A DNA stretch of 15,244 nucleotides, taken from the NCBI GenBank assembly GCA_947631485.1, contig CANRLJ010000005.1, positions 1 through 15,244 of the forward strand, given 5' to 3'. Below the pieces are notes generated by a model that was not told the origin of the DNA, ran no database searches, and saw only the letters and a list, made by a program, of their open reading frames with translations. This stretch comes from an uncultured Clostridia bacterium (GTDB taxonomy: Bacteria; Bacillota; Clostridia; Christensenellales; UBA1242). How positions within the stretch are numbered: the stretch's first letter is position 1; every line of letters starts with the position of its first letter. Of the stretch, positions 1,043-14,261 are shown one piece after another. Position numbers and translations under genes: made by a program.

Positions 1043-4000
1043 TTATTTCTTCTTCAACTCTTTGTCAAGCTTAACTTTTGAAACTATGAAGTAGATTACA
1101 ACGCCTGCAAGCACAACAACAGAAACAACAATCAAAACTGTTCCGATTACTCTGTAAGTTTCTGCTGGGTCTTGAGAGTTGGTCGTGATTGAAATTCTCT
1201 TTGTCCAAGTTCCAACATTTCCGTGGGTGTCTGTGGCTTCAATCTTAAGTTCATAAGTTCCAACTTCGTCAAGATTAAATCTGATTCCGCCGTTAAACTT
1301 TGTTCCAACGATGTCCTCTCCGCCTGAAGATGTGTTTCTGAGAGTGATTACTGGTTCGCTTTCCCCATCCCAACCATATCCTGGGTCTGTTATGTCGATG
1401 TCTGCATATCTGATTGTGAGTTCCGAGCCAACTTTGTAAGTTTCTTTAATAATCTTGTCTGAAACTGAAATTTCTGGAGCAATTACATCGCCGACTGTGA
1501 TTGTCTTTACAAGTTCGTTTTCATTGCCATAATTGTCCTCAACATGATATCTGAAGGTGTATGTTCCGTCAAGACGTGTGCCATCACTGTTGATGGTGAA
1601 GAACGCACCATTTCTCATCTTGTCGTTATACCATGTTTCAGAACCATTGTTGGTGTTTCCAGCCATATCCCATCTGATTGTGATTCTTGAATTGTCGTAG
1701 TTAATTCCGGCTCTGTCTGTGGCTTCAACGCCAGGAACAAAGAATTTATAACCATCAGCAATTTCTTCACGAGTCAAACTCTTTGGGAAATATTGTTCGT
1801 CGTCATAAATGCTTGAGAATTGTGGACCCTTGTTGTCGTTTACAGTAATTGTGTAGGTGTCAGATGTTTCACGATAGAAGATCAATCTTTCAAAGAATTC
1901 GTCAAGGTCTTTGTCTTGCATGCTGTAACTTGCGAAAGTTGTCTTTGCATCAGTAGCAGGGACTTCGTCTGTTTGACCAACCTGACGAGTGTAATATTTG
2001 CCATCTTCTGCTGATTTAAAGAGGTGATATTGCGTTGTGGTTGCTCCGTCAGTTACAAGATAGCCGTCTGGATTTGTTTCGTCAAATTCAACCATCAGTT
2101 TGTTTTCGACGTTCTTCTTTTTGGTGTAGAACAAGCCTGCTTCACCTGTTGGCTTTCCCTCTTTGTTGATCGTTCTTTCAGTAAATTCAAAGTATTCTCT
2201 GTCATAAACAACCAAGTTTACTGTGTATTGAATAGGCACAACTTCTTGTTTTGTTGCGATAAATCTTTGGTTTCTACCTGTTCTTGTGGTGTACCAATCA
2301 ACTGCAGCGCCATTTTCATCAACGCCCTTTATGATTGTCTTTGGAGCAGATGTTTGTGATTCTGGCTCCATTGCCTTATATTCTTCATAAGAAATGCTGT
2401 CATTGATTTCGTATGAAACTGTTGGTGCGTCAATTTCAAGTCCAACTTCTGGATTGTAGTTGTCGTCGCCATCAAGTTCGATTGTCTTGTCACTGAAAGT
2501 TGTGTTAATCTTTGGAGCCTGCAAGATTGTCTTTTTGGAAACATTATAGTTCATGTAGTAAACTGCAGCCTTGTTGTTTATATCAACAACGGTAACTCTT
2601 GCCTGATATTGTCCATAAGAACCAGCAGTAAACTTTCCTGGAGTTATTTTAAGTCTCAAACCATATGGGTCTCTTTCTGCCTTTGTGTCATAAACGCTGA
2701 CCTCTGTCTTTGTGACTTCTGGTTCTCCCTCGTCATTTGTTGTTGTTCTGAAATGATAAACAGAAACATCATATGACAAGTAAGAAACTTTATCGTCGCC
2801 AAACGTTAAGGTTGGAAGCACAATTTCGTCGCCCTGAGTGTATTTTGTCTCATCTGCTTTTAAGTCCTTAACACCTTCAAGCCATGGAGCGTATTCATCA
2901 ACGACATTTGCAATGCTGACAGATGTTGCTGCCATTGTGATGTTTCCGCTGTCATCATAGACATAAGTTACAATCTGCAATTTTGCAACTGGGTCTGCCT
3001 TTCTTGTGTCGTCGTTTATTTCATTGAGGTCGATTGTGTAAGATGATGCATCTGGGTTTGTCAGTTTGACATATCCCTTTGCCTCAAAGTCTTTGTCAAA
3101 GTATGCAGCAAATTTTGTCAGATATCCTTTTGAAACATTGTCACCCTTTTTGTTTAAATCTGTGTAAAGTTGTTTCAAAGAGTTTGAAGAGATGACTTCT
3201 TCTTTGTCTTTAAGGTCTTCCACAGGTTTTCCTGCAGCAGTCAAATATCTGTAGTAAGTCTCAACGCGCATATTTGTGTCTGGGCTGTCGCCGTTGTCTG
3301 ATGCGGTTGGTGCTGTAAATGTTATCTTTGAGTCAGGAAGATATGTGTCGCGAAGTGATGGCGCAAAAGTGAGTGTTGGTGCTTCGCTGTCTGTGTAAGA
3401 GCCAATATAGATTGACTTTGTGGATGTTCTTTCATTGCCTGCTTCGTCGGAAACGATGTAGTCAATATAATATTGTCCATAACCCATGCCCGCAATGTTG
3501 TCATATTCGGTTGCGCCATTTGTTGTTGCACCAAATATTGTGCTTATTGGCAGATATGCAAATCCAAGTTCTTCAAGAGCGGTCTTAACCTTTTTAAGAT
3601 TGTCAATTTCGTCTTGAGTTGCTTCTTCAGAACTTGCCTTTGTCAAAAATTCCTTAAATTTTGCACCTGAATTGAAGAGGTCGGTGTTAAGTTGGTTTCC
3701 CTCTGTCAAAATGCCGGCAATCTTTTCTGAAAACAAGTTGTAGATGTGCTCTGCGTTTGCATTGTCGATTACAATCAAGTAGTTGTTTTGTGCAAGCCAC
3801 GCTCTTGCCTCTTCATCAGTGTGAAATTCTGAGTAATTTGTTGCTTGTTGAATAAGGAAGTTGTTTTTATACAAAGAACTGTAAGCATTGCTGTCTTTGG
3901 TTGTTGTTCGATAGTTGAACACAAGGTTTTTGTCGCTGTATTCAACAATATCATATTTTGTTTCTTGATCAGTTCTGATTCTTCTTACGCGTTTAAGTTT

Positions 4001-5680
4001 GCTGTCAGCAGAAAGTTCTTTATTAAAGTCCTCATTTGTGTTTACATTGTCGTCGATTCCGATTGCGAAAAGCACAACTGAGTTTGGAACTGCACGTGTC
4101 TTAAACTTGTATGTCACATCAACAGGCTTGTCCTCTGACTTTTCTGAAGCGTCATAAAGAACAGGTGTTGGTGGGTCTTTATCAACGATGTTGTTCCAAT
4201 AATAGATTCCTGCTGGGGATTCAACCTTATTTCCATAGAAGTCATAGACTGTGTAAATGAAGGTGTAAGTTCCGTTAAACAATGGTTTAAACTTTGTTGG
4301 GTCTTTCAAAACATATGTTTCTCTTTCGCCCTCTTTAAAGTCGTCAGCCTGTTCCAGAACATCTTTGTAGTCCTCTGTGCTGAGTTCTTCTCTCTTTGAA
4401 GTGCTGCCCTTTTGATAGAGCACTTTCACTGTGTATCTTACATCAACTTCTTTGTCTTCGTCGCCATCTTTGACATATGCAACGGCCTTTGGCAGTGTGA
4501 TTTCCTTTCCTGTTTGTCCGTCGTTTCTGTTCCAAGATGGAGAAAGTCTCTGTTCGAGTTTGTATGTTTTGTAATATGGGGTTGTGCCGTCACCATCAGG
4601 ATACACCTTTGTGCTTTTTGATGTTGAAGCAATAAATTGCCCATCTTCATAATATGAGAAATTTATTGTGTAATCATAAGCCCCAACTGTTGAAAATGTC
4701 TTTCCTTCAATGTAAAGGTCGCCAACAGCATGAACAACAGTGTCGCCATCCTTGACTTCTTCTTCGGCTTTCTTGATTTCCACCTTTCCGCCATCAACGC
4801 CGCCCGTTGCTGTCACAACGACATACTTGCCTTCTTTAAATGGACGAGTGTCTGGGCCTTCTTCCAAAGGTTCTCCAACTCTTGGCAATGCAGTGACATA
4901 GTGTTTTTGAAGGTCTGTTTCGCTTTCTTTTGCGTCCAAAAGATTTATAGCCTCGCCGTCCTCGTCAAGAATTTCTGGCATAGGAAGACTTAAGTCTCTG
5001 TAAACTTGTTCTCCCTCAACATGTGCCCATTTAAGGTCGATTATGCTTGGGATGAAATATTTTGCGTTGTCTTTAAAACTAAATGATGCGCTTGGAACTT
5101 GTGCGATGACCTTTAAGTCATAACTGTTTGTGAAGGTGTTTCCACTTGCATCTTTATAGTCATAAGAATACCTTATTGTGTATGTGCCTTCTTTGTCAGC
5201 TACAAATTCGCCATAGTTTGCTTCATATTTTGCTTTGTCAGCCAAATAGCCTTCATCGCTTTCTTGTTGTGGATATGAACTTGCTTCTGGTTTTTCATAT
5301 ATTTCAACTTCGCCGCCTTCATCTTTCTCTTTCAGCACCTTTGTGTTGTAGAGAACTGTGACGGTTTCATTTGAAATTGTGCCGGAATCCTCAAATCTTC
5401 CCAAGATTTTGTCTTTTTTTCCGCCAACATAAGCAAAAGGTATTTTGTATGTGTCGCCTTTTGTGACTGTCGTAACAACTTCGCCACTTGAAATGACATT
5501 GCCACCATCGGGTTGTGTGACAGGGTTTGAGCCAATCAACAAATAGTTGTAATTTGTCTCTGAGTCAGTTTCAAAATATGCAAAAGCCGTAAGAGCGTTT
5601 AATGGAAAACACAATATTGTCATAGCAAAAGCCATGGCAAACACTAAACCTCTGAAAAAAGTCTTTCTTCTAACTTTCAT
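1043..5680 (-). CDS. Giant secreted, membrane-anchored Ig-like repeat surface protein (1545 aa)
   Basis: The start is the ATG at 5680, preceded by AAGGAG with 8-nt spacing. Residues 1-34 are a typical Sec signal peptide: basic MKVRRK, a hydrophobic core, and a likely cleavage after ALTAFA. The body is a chain of beta-rich modules. Recurrent elements are G.EI.LP near module starts, GTY..RY.V.D..GN near module ends, and D..AP- or DK.PP-like linkers at roughly residues 505, 765, 925, 1280 and 1395. These resemble bacterial Ig-like or HYR-like domains of adhesins. The C-terminus has one transmembrane helix (about 1512-1534) and a Lys-rich tail, KLDKELKKK. There is no LPXTG sortase motif, no S-layer homology domain and no recognisable catalytic motif. 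It is probably a surface adhesin or envelope protein; ligand unknown. It is monocistronic, with its own promoter and a terminator shared with the convergent gene. Substantial Asp/Glu content could indicate calcium-binding linkers, but that is inference. Confidence 0.9.
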   Translation of the reverse strand: MKVRRKTFFRGLVFAMAFAMTILCFPLNALTAFAYFETDSETNYNYLLIGSNPVTQPDGGNVISSGEVVTTVTKGDTYKIPFAYVGGKKDKILGRFEDSGTISNETVTVLYNTKVLKEKDEGGEVEIYEKPEASSYPQQESDEGYLADKAKYEANYGEFVADKEGTYTIRYSYDYKDASGNTFTNSYDLKVIAQVPSASFSFKDNAKYFIPSIIDLKWAHVEGEQVYRDLSLPMPEILDEDGEAINLLDAKESETDLQKHYVTALPRVGEPLEEGPDTRPFKEGKYVVVTATGGVDGGKVEIKKAEEEVKDGDTVVHAVGDLYIEGKTFSTVGAYDYTINFSYYEDGQFIASTSKSTKVYPDGDGTTPYYKTYKLEQRLSPSWNRNDGQTGKEITLPKAVAYVKDGDEDKEVDVRYTVKVLYQKGSTSKREELSTEDYKDVLEQADDFKEGERETYVLKDPTKFKPLFNGTYTFIYTVYDFYGNKVESPAGIYYWNNIVDKDPPTPVLYDASEKSEDKPVDVTYKFKTRAVPNSVVLFAIGIDDNVNTNEDFNKELSADSKLKRVRRIRTDQETKYDIVEYSDKNLVFNYRTTTKDSNAYSSLYKNNFLIQQATNYSEFHTDEEARAWLAQNNYLIVIDNANAEHIYNLFSEKIAGILTEGNQLNTDLFNSGAKFKEFLTKASSEEATQDEIDNLKKVKTALEELGFAYLPISTIFGATTNGATEYDNIAGMGYGQYYIDYIVSDEAGNERTSTKSIYIGSYTDSEAPTLTFAPSLRDTYLPDSKITFTAPTASDNGDSPDTNMRVETYYRYLTAAGKPVEDLKDKEEVISSNSLKQLYTDLNKKGDNVSKGYLTKFAAYFDKDFEAKGYVKLTNPDASSYTIDLNEINDDTRKADPVAKLQIVTYVYDDSGNITMAATSVSIANVVDEYAPWLEGVKDLKADETKYTQGDEIVLPTLTFGDDKVSYLSYDVSVYHFRTTTNDEGEPEVTKTEVSVYDTKAERDPYGLRLKITPGKFTAGSYGQYQARVTVVDINNKAAVYYMNYNVSKKTILQAPKINTTFSDKTIELDGDDNYNPEVGLEIDAPTVSYEINDSISYEEYKAMEPESQTSAPKTIIKGVDENGAAVDWYTTRTGRNQRFIATKQEVVPIQYTVNLVVYDREYFEFTERTINKEGKPTGEAGLFYTKKKNVENKLMVEFDETNPDGYLVTDGATTTQYHLFKSAEDGKYYTRQVGQTDEVPATDAKTTFASYSMQDKDLDEFFERLIFYRETSDTYTITVNDNKGPQFSSIYDDEQYFPKSLTREEIADGYKFFVPGVEATDRAGINYDNSRITIRWDMAGNTNNGSETWYNDKMRNGAFFTINSDGTRLDGTYTFRYHVEDNYGNENELVKTITVGDVIAPEISVSDKIIKETYKVGSELTIRYADIDITDPGYGWDGESEPVITLRNTSSGGEDIVGTKFNGGIRFNLDEVGTYELKIEATDTHGNVGTWTKRISITTNSQDPAETYRVIGTVLIVVSVVVLAGVVIYFIVSKVKLDKELKKK

Positions 5681-8584: not shown

Positions 8585-9307
8585 TCATTTCTTGCCAATG
8601 CCTGCCGCAGTTTTCTCCCTCTTCTTTTCTTGGCAAAAAGCATGAATTTGTCTTTGCAATGTCTTTGTTCTTTCTGGGAATCTAAACAGCCTGACTCTGT
8701 CAAGTTCATAGTTTGCTTTTGGGTCAAAACCCTTCATGTCATAACCCAATATGACAACATCTGAAAACTTGGAACTTTGAATCATCATTGCATCAAAACC
8801 GTTTCTGACAAAATACTTAAAACCCGAGCGAATTTTCAGAGCCGTTTCAACAGAATCGCGAGAGTTTTTGCTGACATGCATTGCAGCCATCATCTTTTCA
8901 AAATAGAAGGCATACAAATCTCTTGCAAATGCCTTGATGAAACTGCTGTATTTGCAATCTCGATAAGCCCTGCCGTCCTTTGTTTTAAGTTCTATGTTCA
9001 CAGGCACTGAAAGGCGCTCTTCCGTTGCGGTTTTTCGCGTCATGTCGGAAGTTGAAAGTTGGTCCATCTTAAACATCACTTGTTCAAATCCGTCATCATC
9101 TCCCAAGCAGATGTAATATGGGCTGGTCTGAAACAAATCAACATCCTCGCTTGCCGACAATGGCAATGTCAAAAGCACCTGTTTTAGGTCTGCCTCATCA
9201 ACTTTTTGTTGTTGTATTCCGTGCAGTCTTTCTCCAGTTCTGACTCTTGGCAAAACCAACAATTTTTCGCTTAACACATCATAAATTTCTTCTTCAAATG
9301 TCTTCAT
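8585..9307 (-). CDS. Hypothetical protein (240 aa)
   Basis: I do not recognise this protein. The frame is open upstream to a GTG at 9376, but that would overlap the preceding terminator. I start at the ATG at 9307 (MKTFEEEIYDVLSEKLLVLP), preceded by GGAGAGGAAA. The product is soluble-looking with no signal peptide or membrane helix. It has a mixed alpha/beta character and a very basic C-terminus (ERTKTLQRQIHAFCQEKKREK, then TAAGIGKK). The middle contains the aromatic-rich SSFIKAFARDLYAFYFEKMM, probably a helix. No catalytic or DNA-binding motif is evident. Codon use and base composition match the neighbours. It lies between the hicB-like terminator and the rpmG promoter and appears to be a single-gene unit, but its own promoter is not clear. 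Confidence 0.8.
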   Translation of the reverse strand: MKTFEEEIYDVLSEKLLVLPRVRTGERLHGIQQQKVDEADLKQVLLTLPLSASEDVDLFQTSPYYICLGDDDGFEQVMFKMDQLSTSDMTRKTATEERLSVPVNIELKTKDGRAYRDCKYSSFIKAFARDLYAFYFEKMMAAMHVSKNSRDSVETALKIRSGFKYFVRNGFDAMMIQSSKFSDVVILGYDMKGFDPKANYELDRVRLFRFPERTKTLQRQIHAFCQEKKREKTAAGIGKK

Positions 9308-9356
9308 TTTCCTCTCCAATAAACAGTATTTGACGATATTTTTGTGATTTAAGTAT

Positions 9357-9380
9357 AAAAAAGAGTGATATCTCACTCTT
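9357..9380 (-). terminator. Intrinsic terminator of the hicB-like gene, overlapping its stop codon
   Basis: On the minus strand AAGAGTGA (9373-9380), a 4-nt loop and TCACTCTT (9361-9368) form an 8-bp perfect stem, followed by a T tract (9362-9357). The stem includes part of the hicB-like stop codon (TAA, 9379-9381). Confidence 0.85.
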
Positions 9381-9654
9381 ATTCTTCTATGTCAACAATG
9401 GCATCTATGTACATAGCAATTTCAGAAGGTTTACACTTTTCCATAATCTTTTCTATATTTGTCGGCTTGTTGAAGTCAATCTCATATTTTATTGCATAAG
9501 ACAGATATGATTTCAAAAGGCCTTTTGCATACACATACGCTTCGGTCATGTTTTTGCCATCAGTGTAGATGTTTAAATCTGGAAAAAGAACTTGGCAACT
9601 TTCATCTTCATCTTTAATAAATATTGCTGGATAAATGTATTGACGCTTTTTCAT
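9379..9654 (-). CDS. HicB-like protein (orphan antitoxin-type domain)
   Basis: This 91-aa protein resembles the N-terminal partial-RNase-H fold of HicB antitoxins. Its features are YPAIFIKDEDESCQVLFPDL, the turn IYTDGKNMTEAYVYAKGLLK, a helix LKSYLSYAIKYE and then N-K-P. In HicAB systems HicB neutralises the HicA mRNA endonuclease and represses the operon through a C-terminal DNA-binding domain. Here the C-terminus (KCKPSEIAMYIDAIVDIEE) is too short for a full ribbon-helix-helix or HTH domain. No HicA-type ORF is seen on either side. It may therefore be a solitary HicB-like regulator or a remnant. The ATG at 9654 follows GGAG; a promoter and a 12-bp palindrome lie upstream, and a terminator overlaps the stop. 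Confidence 0.8.
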   Translation of the reverse strand: MKKRQYIYPAIFIKDEDESCQVLFPDLNIYTDGKNMTEAYVYAKGLLKSYLSYAIKYEIDFNKPTNIEKIMEKCKPSEIAMYIDAIVDIEE

Positions 9655-12822: not shown

Positions 12823-13164
12823 TCAATCTTCTATTGTCAACTTTGACCCAAAGAAATTTTCGAGTTTTTTAACATCTTTTGCCACTTTTTGTTGGTCACT
12901 TTCAAACTTGATAATCTCAAATTTTATGTCCAATCCCTGCCAACGCAATGCCGCCTCGATGTCTTTTCTGCCGTTTTCCAAGACATCAATCAAAAAATTG
13001 TCTGAGGTACGGATTATCAAACTGTTGTTTTCCAGCGTTGCATTTGTGATGTCTCCGCAAGCAACATGAAGCGCAACCTTTTTGTGTTCCTTCAAATACA
13101 AAACAACCTTTCCCCAGACATTTTTTGCAGTCTGCTTTGTTGGGTCTTTCTCAATTTTCAGTTT
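12823..13164 (-). CDS. dnaX: DnaX C-terminal (tau-type) extension in the -1 frame
   Basis: Starting within the A9 run, the -1 frame relative to dnaX is open for 113 codons to TGA at 12823-12825. It begins KLKIEKDPTKQTAKNVWGKV. The segment VWGKVVLYLKEHKKVALHV, a strand pair ending in NSLIIRTSDNFLIDVLENGR, and a final LENFFGSKLTIED follow the pattern of the C-terminal domain of Gram-positive DnaX, which contacts the polymerase. It has no start codon with a ribosome binding site: the first TTG (13101) lies in the middle of the domain and has no Shine-Dalgarno. It should be expressed only as a fusion to residues 1-366, giving 479 aa, by ribosomal -1 frameshifting or by RNA polymerase adding one A. 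If the run is really A10 in the genome, this is simply the 3' end of an intact dnaX. Confidence 0.85.
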   Translation of the reverse strand, partial: KLKIEKDPTKQTAKNVWGKVVLYLKEHKKVALHVACGDITNATLENNSLIIRTSDNFLIDVLENGRKDIEAALRWQGLDIKFEIIKFESDQQKVAKDVKKLENFFGSKLTIED

Positions 13165-14261
13165 TTTTTTACATCATAGCCCAGCATTGCTGCAAGACAA
13201 GTTGTTTCAAGCAGCAATCTGACAGACAATGTGTATCTCAGTTCGCTTTCTGCACCGGAAAAGACCTGCATATATCTGACCAAATCCTTTTCGGCAAACC
13301 TTGCTGATTGCTGAACATATCTTTCCAAAATTTCGTCTGGAAGATTTAGGATTTCTTTTGCGTTTTTGCACGCTTTGCAAACCAAAAGGTCTCGGGAGTG
13401 CTTTGACAAATCCTTTGCAAACACTGCAAGATTTTTTCCTTCCTTTTCAATTTGGTCAATCAGTGACAAAACGCCGCCAACATCCTTGTCCAAAAGTTTG
13501 TCAAAAAAGTTTAAGATAAGGTCGTGGTCGGTTGTGCCCAAAACGCTGAGAGTCTTTTCTTTTGTTATGTCTTTTTGACAAAATGAGGCAATGCTGTCGG
13601 CAATTGAAAGCGTGTCTCTGACACTTCCCTCACCAGCACTTGCAATTATTCTTAAACTCTCTTCGTCATATTTGATGTTTTCTTTATCAAACACCTTTGC
13701 AAGATGTTTGGCAAGCATGTCCACACTGACAAGTCTGAAATCAAACCTCACGCAGCGCGACAGAATTGTCTGAGGAAGTTTGTGCACCTCTGTGGTTGCC
13801 AAAATGAAGATGACATATGAAGGTGGCTCTTCCAAGGTCTTTAAAAGTGCATTGAAGGCGCTGTCGGAAAGCATATGAACTTCGTCCACTATGTAAACCT
13901 TATACTTTGCCCCAACAGGCATAAACTTCACTTTTTCTCTGATTTGTCTTATGTCGTCAACTTTGTTGTTTGAAGCGGCGTCAATTTCAATTATGTTTAT
14001 GTCGTTTTCTTGCTCCAACCTCTTGCAGTTTTCGCATTTCCCACAAGCAGAGCCCCTCACAGGCGAAAGGCAGTTGACAGATTTGGCAAATATCTTTGCA
14101 ACGCTTGTCTTTCCTGTTCCGCGCGTGCCCGTGAAAAGATAGGCATGACCAATCTGCCCGCTCATAATTTGATTTGCGAGCGTCTTTGTTATGTGGTCCT
14201 GCCCAATAACTTCATCAAAACTTTTAGGTCTGTATTTCCTATAAAGTGCAATATGTTCCAT
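13158..14261 (-). CDS. dnaX: DNA polymerase III gamma/tau clamp-loader ATPase (367-aa in-frame product)
   Basis: DnaX is the motor subunit of the clamp loader, which places the sliding clamp on DNA. Features: ALYRKYRPKSFDEVIGQ at the N-terminus; Walker A GTRGTGKT (45-52); zinc module Cys64, Cys73, Cys76, Cys79; Walker B VDEVHML (125-131); sensor ATTEVHKLP; arginine-finger SRC (168-170); and domain III ending near SELRYTLSVRLLLETTCLAAML. The normal frame stops at TGA 13158-13160, right after nine A (13162-13170), so this product has domains I-III only, like the gamma form. The tau-like remainder is open in the -1 frame (see 12823-13164). The ATG at 14261 follows AGGAG, which overlaps the tpiA stop, so coupling is likely. 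Most Gram-positive DnaX proteins are longer and unbroken, so an assembly indel must be considered. Confidence 0.95.
   Translation of the reverse strand: MEHIALYRKYRPKSFDEVIGQDHITKTLANQIMSGQIGHAYLFTGTRGTGKTSVAKIFAKSVNCLSPVRGSACGKCENCKRLEQENDINIIEIDAASNNKVDDIRQIREKVKFMPVGAKYKVYIVDEVHMLSDSAFNALLKTLEEPPSYVIFILATTEVHKLPQTILSRCVRFDFRLVSVDMLAKHLAKVFDKENIKYDEESLRIIASAGEGSVRDTLSIADSIASFCQKDITKEKTLSVLGTTDHDLILNFFDKLLDKDVGGVLSLIDQIEKEGKNLAVFAKDLSKHSRDLLVCKACKNAKEILNLPDEILERYVQQSARFAEKDLVRYMQVFSGAESELRYTLSVRLLLETTCLAAMLGYDVKKN
13161..13170 (-). promoter_or_regulatory. A9 slippage site in dnaX
   Basis: The minus strand reads GTA AAA AAA AAC TGA in the dnaX frame, so a run of nine A is followed at once by a stop. 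One base backward, or one extra A in the mRNA, yields AAA CTG AAA ATT and stays open for 113 codons. A9 is the run length known to cause transcriptional slippage in Thermus dnaX, and A AAA AAA is also a slippery heptamer. No upstream Shine-Dalgarno-like stimulator is seen. A downstream hairpin CAGAC/GTCTG (13115-13119 with 13130-13134) is weak and further away than in classical sites. Confidence 0.75.

Follow-up and report, generated by a model that had tools for sequence, protein, structure and literature searches.

A conserved A9 run and a putatively reversed gamma/tau arrangement in the dnaX gene of a Clostridia genus, with unlike devices in related genera

The dnaX gene of Escherichia coli gives a short and a long DnaX protein from one gene, with the break after domain III; the site is A_AAA_AAG, with a stem-loop and an SD-like word beside it, and it is the short form that arises by frameshifting (PMC5009743, PMC3711429). 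In Thermus thermophilus, dnaX carries an A9 run with stops nearby in the wrong frames; there the template frame encodes tau, and slippage leads to gamma (PMC1088944, PMC5009743). Antonov et al. described in 2013 a two-ORF, reversed dnaX, in which the zero-frame stop lies at the slip site, the tau part follows in the -1 frame with, in most cases, poly-A at the join, and recoding is needed for the longer subunit. That paper gives 17 such genes of 12 genera, nine of them with A10, and the cases it names with A9, A8, and A7 are Chlorobi (PMC3711429). Atkins et al. (2016) ascribe the reversed form to "many fewer bacteria" and treat the bacterial need for a separate gamma as controversial (PMC5009743). 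A homopolymer frameshift in Blochmannia dnaX lies further down the gene, in the tau-only part (PMC3017870).

The window analyzed here, a stretch of 15,244 nucleotides from an uncultured Clostridia bacterium, is one entire contig of a 780-kb draft genome (118 contigs, 76.6% complete). Its dnaX locus shows the following features.

13158..14261, minus strand: zero frame of dnaX including its stop; gamma-like product of 367 aa with AAA+ core, lid, and domain III
13162..13170, minus strand: A9 run, putative slip site (GTA AAA AAA AAC), read from the sequence; kept in 94 of 96 same-genus loci
13158..13160, minus strand: zero-frame stop TGA, end of the short form, read from the sequence
13151..13153, minus strand: third-frame stop TGA, two codons past the slip site, read from the sequence
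12823..13161, minus strand: -1-frame ORF of the tail, 112 aa plus stop, a tau-like C-terminal domain

The frame opens with the ATG at 14261 on the minus strand and runs for 367 codons to GTA AAA AAA AAC TGA, with GTA at 13172-13170 and AAC at 13163-13161. An earlier note on this DNA described nine A's followed at once by an in-frame TGA; run and stop are both present, separated by the C that ends AAC. The site is thus A_AAA_AAC and not the A_AAA_AAG of E. coli-type dnaX, and it does not resemble the prfB type, as no CCC precedes the stop and the tail lies in the -1 frame. The zero-frame product matches the gamma/tau model PRK05563.1 of NCBIfam at 500.6 bits (cut-off, 400), and Pfam domain III (PF12169) covers its residues 232 to 354; this frame thus encodes a complete DnaX core. 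The neighbors on the same strand resemble pgk and tpiA upstream and ybaB, recR, and argS downstream, as read by eye from their translations.

Entered at 13161, the -1 frame encodes 112 residues and closes with a stop at 12825-12823, so that the long -1 frame of the earlier note stands, its 113 codons being reached only when the stop is counted. That the tail has no start of its own is borne out: it contains no ATG, and the earliest of its ATG, GTG, or TTG codons, the TTG at 13101, already belongs to the conserved stretch WGKVVLYLKEH, with no such codon upstream of the conserved WG motif. Its proposed identity as a DnaX C-terminal domain also holds, since it is homologous to the C-termini of two loci of the same genus (L162 and L163), where it is fused in frame to DnaX. 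The tail profile also matches 11 of 14 outgroup loci from the order. The fold predicted for the window tail is a compact domain; a Pfam search with this tail and a comparison of a sequence profile with the PDB gave nothing usable. The Pfam family PolC N-terminus II is matched by 6 of 25 aligned C-termini, with a best E value of 5.8e-5.

On the evidence of the site, its frames, their conservation, and the purifying selection on the tail, all of it drawn from sequence, the arrangement is best read as programmed recoding with the default reversed: gamma would be the default product and tau would come from slippage at A9, mostly by RNA polymerase. We assign this reading a probability of roughly 70%. 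Ordinary decoding of the template would give a gamma-like clamp-loader subunit ending just after domain III, and a net one-base slip at A9 would join it to the -1 frame to yield a tau-like protein of about 479 aa. RNA polymerase would make most of the slip, copying the A9 template into mRNAs with 8, 9, 10, or 11 A's. An mRNA with A10 (or A7) would read on into tau, while translation of mRNAs with A9/A12 or A8/A11 would end at a stop a few codons on and yield gamma, so that both proteins would be expected in some presumed ratio. The tail would link the clamp loader to the polymerase or the helicase. Short and long DnaX from one gene with a break after domain III recall E. coli, the long form being predicted here. 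The A9 run, the nearby stops in the wrong frames, and the two expected products recall Thermus; in contrast to Thermus, the template frame of the window is gamma. The zero-frame stop, the -1 tail, the poly-A join, and the need for recoding to reach the longer subunit agree with the reversed dnaX of Antonov et al. The difference is that here A9 (A10 in 7 of 94 sites) is spread over a genus of Clostridia and 12 more genera of the same family, in which other devices occur as well, although the nine A10 species of that paper may include Clostridia.

The site was followed first in 61 genomes and then in 297 genomes of the family. The window's genus (g1) contributes 97 loci, that of the window included, of which 96 are readable at the site. 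These counts do not include four same-genus genomes (G012, G307, G314, and G315) and genus g34 (G069), which gave weak or partial matches only, or L190 (G319), which was cut by the choice of region. The pattern NNA AAA AAA AAC/T plus stop, with a homologous -1 tail, is found in 94 of the 96 readable loci. The last codon before the stop pattern is AAC in 87 sites and AAT in 7, and the run is A9 in 87 and A10 in 7, with identical phase throughout. The seven AAT sites have ten A's because their preceding codon is CAA or GAA; what is kept is therefore the frame relation and not the count of A's. The zero-frame stop follows immediately in 89 sites and two codons on in 5. The codon before AAA AAA encodes six different residues and yet ends in A in 94 of 94 sites, against 27.7 expected from the codon usage of the genes themselves; no p-value is given, since relatives are not independent samples. 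This suggests selection for the full run, beyond what a ribosomal heptamer needs. In 131 of 131 usable pairwise comparisons the dN/dS of the tail stays below 1, with a median of 0.36 versus 0.10 for the core and with synonymous sites near saturation. Conservation of the site together with these ratios indicates that the break is kept and that the tail is selected as a protein, the first of the two possibilities named in the earlier note, which had considered the tail to be under selection or very recently broken.

These data also bear on the suspicion, raised in the earlier note, that A9 had been assembled in place of A10. If the assembly or the sequencing were in error, or if the gene had only recently become a pseudogene, the true gene would be uninterrupted. 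The 118-contig draft state of the genome would fit such an error, as would two same-genus loci, L162 (G316) and L163 (G299), which carry one extra A (A10) and an open frame giving uninterrupted DnaX proteins of 482 and 500 aa. The comparison with relatives nevertheless finds the A run, the zero-frame stop, and the -1 tail in 94 of 96 loci, and an A9 or A10 run with a -1 tail in 12 further genera; a homopolymer error fails as a general explanation. With purifying selection on the tail in addition, error and pseudogene are rejected as highly improbable. The reversed gamma/tau logic proposed in the note is the best reading, with uninterrupted frames among the readable loci of the genus confined to G316 and G299. 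The A10 open frame of those two may be a natural register flip, strain variation, or an assembly error. They sit at separate places in the genus tree, as could be expected if replication slippage between A9 and A10 acted as a phase switch of tau. This is the least probable of the explanations considered, since 94 of 96 loci are in one phase, a replication subunit is an odd target for such a switch, and the nearby third-frame stops and the CCC sites of sister genera would be left unexplained.

A more serious alternative accepts the same reversed arrangement and lets the ribosome make the -1 shift, at A_AAA_AAA or A_AAA_AAC, aided by the adjoining stop. Valid heptamers stand in phase at 94 of 94 same-genus -1 sites. 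An SD-like word of at least 4 lies within 16 nt upstream of the site in 34 of 94 loci, versus a background of 16%, a mild excess. Downstream folding is slightly stronger in 25 of the 94 loci (mean z of -0.75 versus -0.09 for a control stretch, p of 0.046; z below -2 in 3 of the 25). In 29 other -1 loci this strengthening is absent (mean z of -0.04). Two other genera have -1 tails behind short runs, with six A's in g46 (L146, TCA AAA AAC CAA TAG) and seven in g61 (L133, TCA AAA AAA TTT TAA), and these sites look ribosomal rather than transcriptional. For the window, the retention of all nine A's speaks against the ribosome as the main agent, since a heptamer needs six or seven. The early closure of the third frame, for which a pure -1 shift has no need, points the same way. 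In each of the 93 same-genus tails measured, the third frame meets a stop within 9 codons. This stop lies nearer than the downstream background of the group itself in 16 of 16 -1 groups (15 genera and one named locus, with g28, g31, g38, g66, and duplicates left out; Wilcoxon 1.5e-5) and in 3 of 6 +1 groups (0.66), in a comparison that was chosen after the data had been seen, in which relatives are not independent, and in which the linker may simply be A/T-rich. Ribosomal shifting at the window site is on balance unlikely, and we hold transcriptional slippage to be about three times as likely there.

The rarity of A9 contributes little to this choice. The genome of the window has 132 runs of exactly A8 versus 5 matches of A9. 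Three of the other four matches are intergenic and one lies in an 81-codon open frame taken to be spurious, so that the dnaX run appears to be the only A9 of this genome in a convincing gene. Fewer A9 matches than A8 runs are, however, found in 33 of 34 genomes counted, regardless of dnaX type, and the exception, G088 (91 versus 64), has overlapping matches in long runs counted repeatedly. Scarcity as a mark special to A9-type dnaX was therefore dropped; at most it shows that A9 is costly in these bacteria.

The tail could also be a separate protein, made from its own start or by re-initiation after the zero-frame stop. Exactly this looks to be the case in a sister genus, g38, whose dnaX seems truly split: in its five loci (L132, L243, L247, L255, and L259) the frame relation of tail to core varies, and a start codon with an SD-like word precedes the conserved motif in 5 of 5, as in the L132 junction, TAA AAGGTG AATTA ATG. 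Some ATG, GTG, or TTG occurs before this motif in 61 of 94 same-genus tails of the window type as well, with ATG in 22. A start with an SD-like word is found in only 3 of these 94; among the other -1 tails 4 of 29 have one, and among the +1 tails 2 of 12. The window lacks any candidate codon before WG. The fixed -1 relation would moreover be unneeded for re-initiation, and its conservation makes a frame change the better reading than a separate start. An own start was thus accepted for g38 and rejected for the window type, where it is very unlikely.

Reversed recoding, as preferred for the window, is only one of several arrangements in the family. The survey covers the site in 41 of 42 genera, most of them represented by one to five loci. 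An A9 or A10 run with a -1 tail occurs in 13 genera (g1, g27, g35, g37, g39, g40, g42, g44, g48, g51, g56, g60, and g65), the run standing in another phase in g27 and g39. Another 15 genera have an uninterrupted gene. Of the 28 uninterrupted loci of the family, 11 have a run of A8 to A10 close to where domain III ends, and each of the two other frames closes within ten codons, which is a Thermus-like layout; these loci are found in g26, g29, g30, g41, g45, g47, g52, and g53 and in the two A10 genomes of g1. Nine of the 28, all of them outside the genus of the window, have an A8 or A9 run in the tau-default register, and A9 in this register is what would be expected if the run itself is the device. 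Tails in the +1 frame are present in g32, g49, g54, g57, and g59 and in the named loci L057 and L072, while g55 carries a +1 site with the contig ending within the tail. In the fast-evolving lineages g28, g31, g43, and g66, six tails were tested, and five of them show an SD-like word ahead of a start codon. No tau-like tail was found after the short DnaX of L157 (g43) and L160 (g31), both on long branches; there it has perhaps been lost or moved.

The +1 sites recall prfB, in which a slippery CTTT lies three nucleotides past an SD-like word (PMC12421855). Seven of the eight +1 loci outside g57 (L072, L137, L138, L148, L149, L177, and L244) show GGTG, any codon, CCC, and then a stop, which places the SD-like word 3 nt before the slippery codon as in prfB (RF2). 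They differ from it in having CCC instead of CTT and TAA, TAG, or TGA as the stop; since the +1 product is tau, no RF2 feedback is implied. In L177 one codon separates CCC from the stop, in L149 the contig ends and the tail frame is not readable, and in L244 GGTG was read by eye from the sequence where the script gave another word. The eighth locus, L057, has AGGAG at a spacing of 5 instead of GGTG. The residues around the GTG codon of the site vary. Outside their last ten codons, these genes show the same in-frame spacing at 9 of 5889 codons (16 loci, three of them duplicates). In Listeria phages, CCC_UGA serves as a +1 site (PMC5009743). Together these observations make a good sequence case for ribosomal +1 shifting in the sister genera. 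The five loci of g57 (L144, L245, L248, L252, and L256) form a variant, TTT CCC AGN stop with no SD-like word in 5 of 5, in which the slip could be at TTT_C or CCC_A.

Outside the family, uninterrupted dnaX predominates. Among the best 150 matches in an order sample of 198 genomes, 17 belong to the family of the window, and 132 of the 133 others are uninterrupted (491 to 706 aa); the one exception is short, starting at base 31 of its contig and cut by the contig end. In the first search, 23 of 24 order genomes had DnaX frames of 501 to 612 aa and one had a 254-aa fragment.

A tree of the DnaX core, built by a quick method from 110 rows and with weak support in places and some long branches, requires 19 changes of device in all, undecided lineages included; its starred branches force at least 5 changes for -1 and at least 4 for +1. 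A single clade of the 8 +1 rows outside g57, a group named after the tree had been seen, is rejected with a p-AU of 0.0056, which tests the clade and not a single origin. The outgroup locus L039, which is uninterrupted and has its A9 at codon 374, is placed within the family as a neighbor of g27, so that the gene tree is not a clean species tree. Given the weak support, the long branches, and this outgroup row, repeated change is claimed here and not exact numbers. The family has probably kept two DnaX forms and changed the device several times. The devices would comprise slippage at A9 with either tau or gamma as the default, the prfB-like +1 shifty stop (GGTG-NNN-CCC-stop), the TTT CCC AGN-stop +1 variant of g57, and fission in g38. 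What selection preserves would then be the two products and a break where domain III ends, not a particular mechanism.

A short form as template default and unlike devices that break the gene at the same domain boundary argue that both forms are under selection. Transcriptional slippage, -1 and +1 recoding, and fission can be compared within one gene in this family, which forms a natural series. The family also accounts for database entries in which the tail is listed as a small protein of its own, in some cases under the name "hypothetical protein." One tail cluster bears the name Candidatus Caccovivens sp.; NCBI assigns that genus to Clostridia, and PMC8035907 gives its GTDB order as Christensenellales and its family as UBA1242, which is a lead to the name of the family. 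Taken alone, the window is a new member of the kind published in 2013, and the apparent novelty is the family around it: +1 dnaX, register flips, and fission within one family were not found in print among open-access full texts, supplements excluded.

Elsewhere in the window, the minus strand carries at 9379-9654 a candidate HicB-like antitoxin of 91 aa (PF15919, 26.4 bits, just below the cut-off of 27), followed at 8585-9376 by a 263-aa protein with no Pfam match. A surface-like protein of 1545 aa, with matches to bacterial Ig-like domains (PF19077, 29.4 bits), is encoded on the same strand at 1043-5680.
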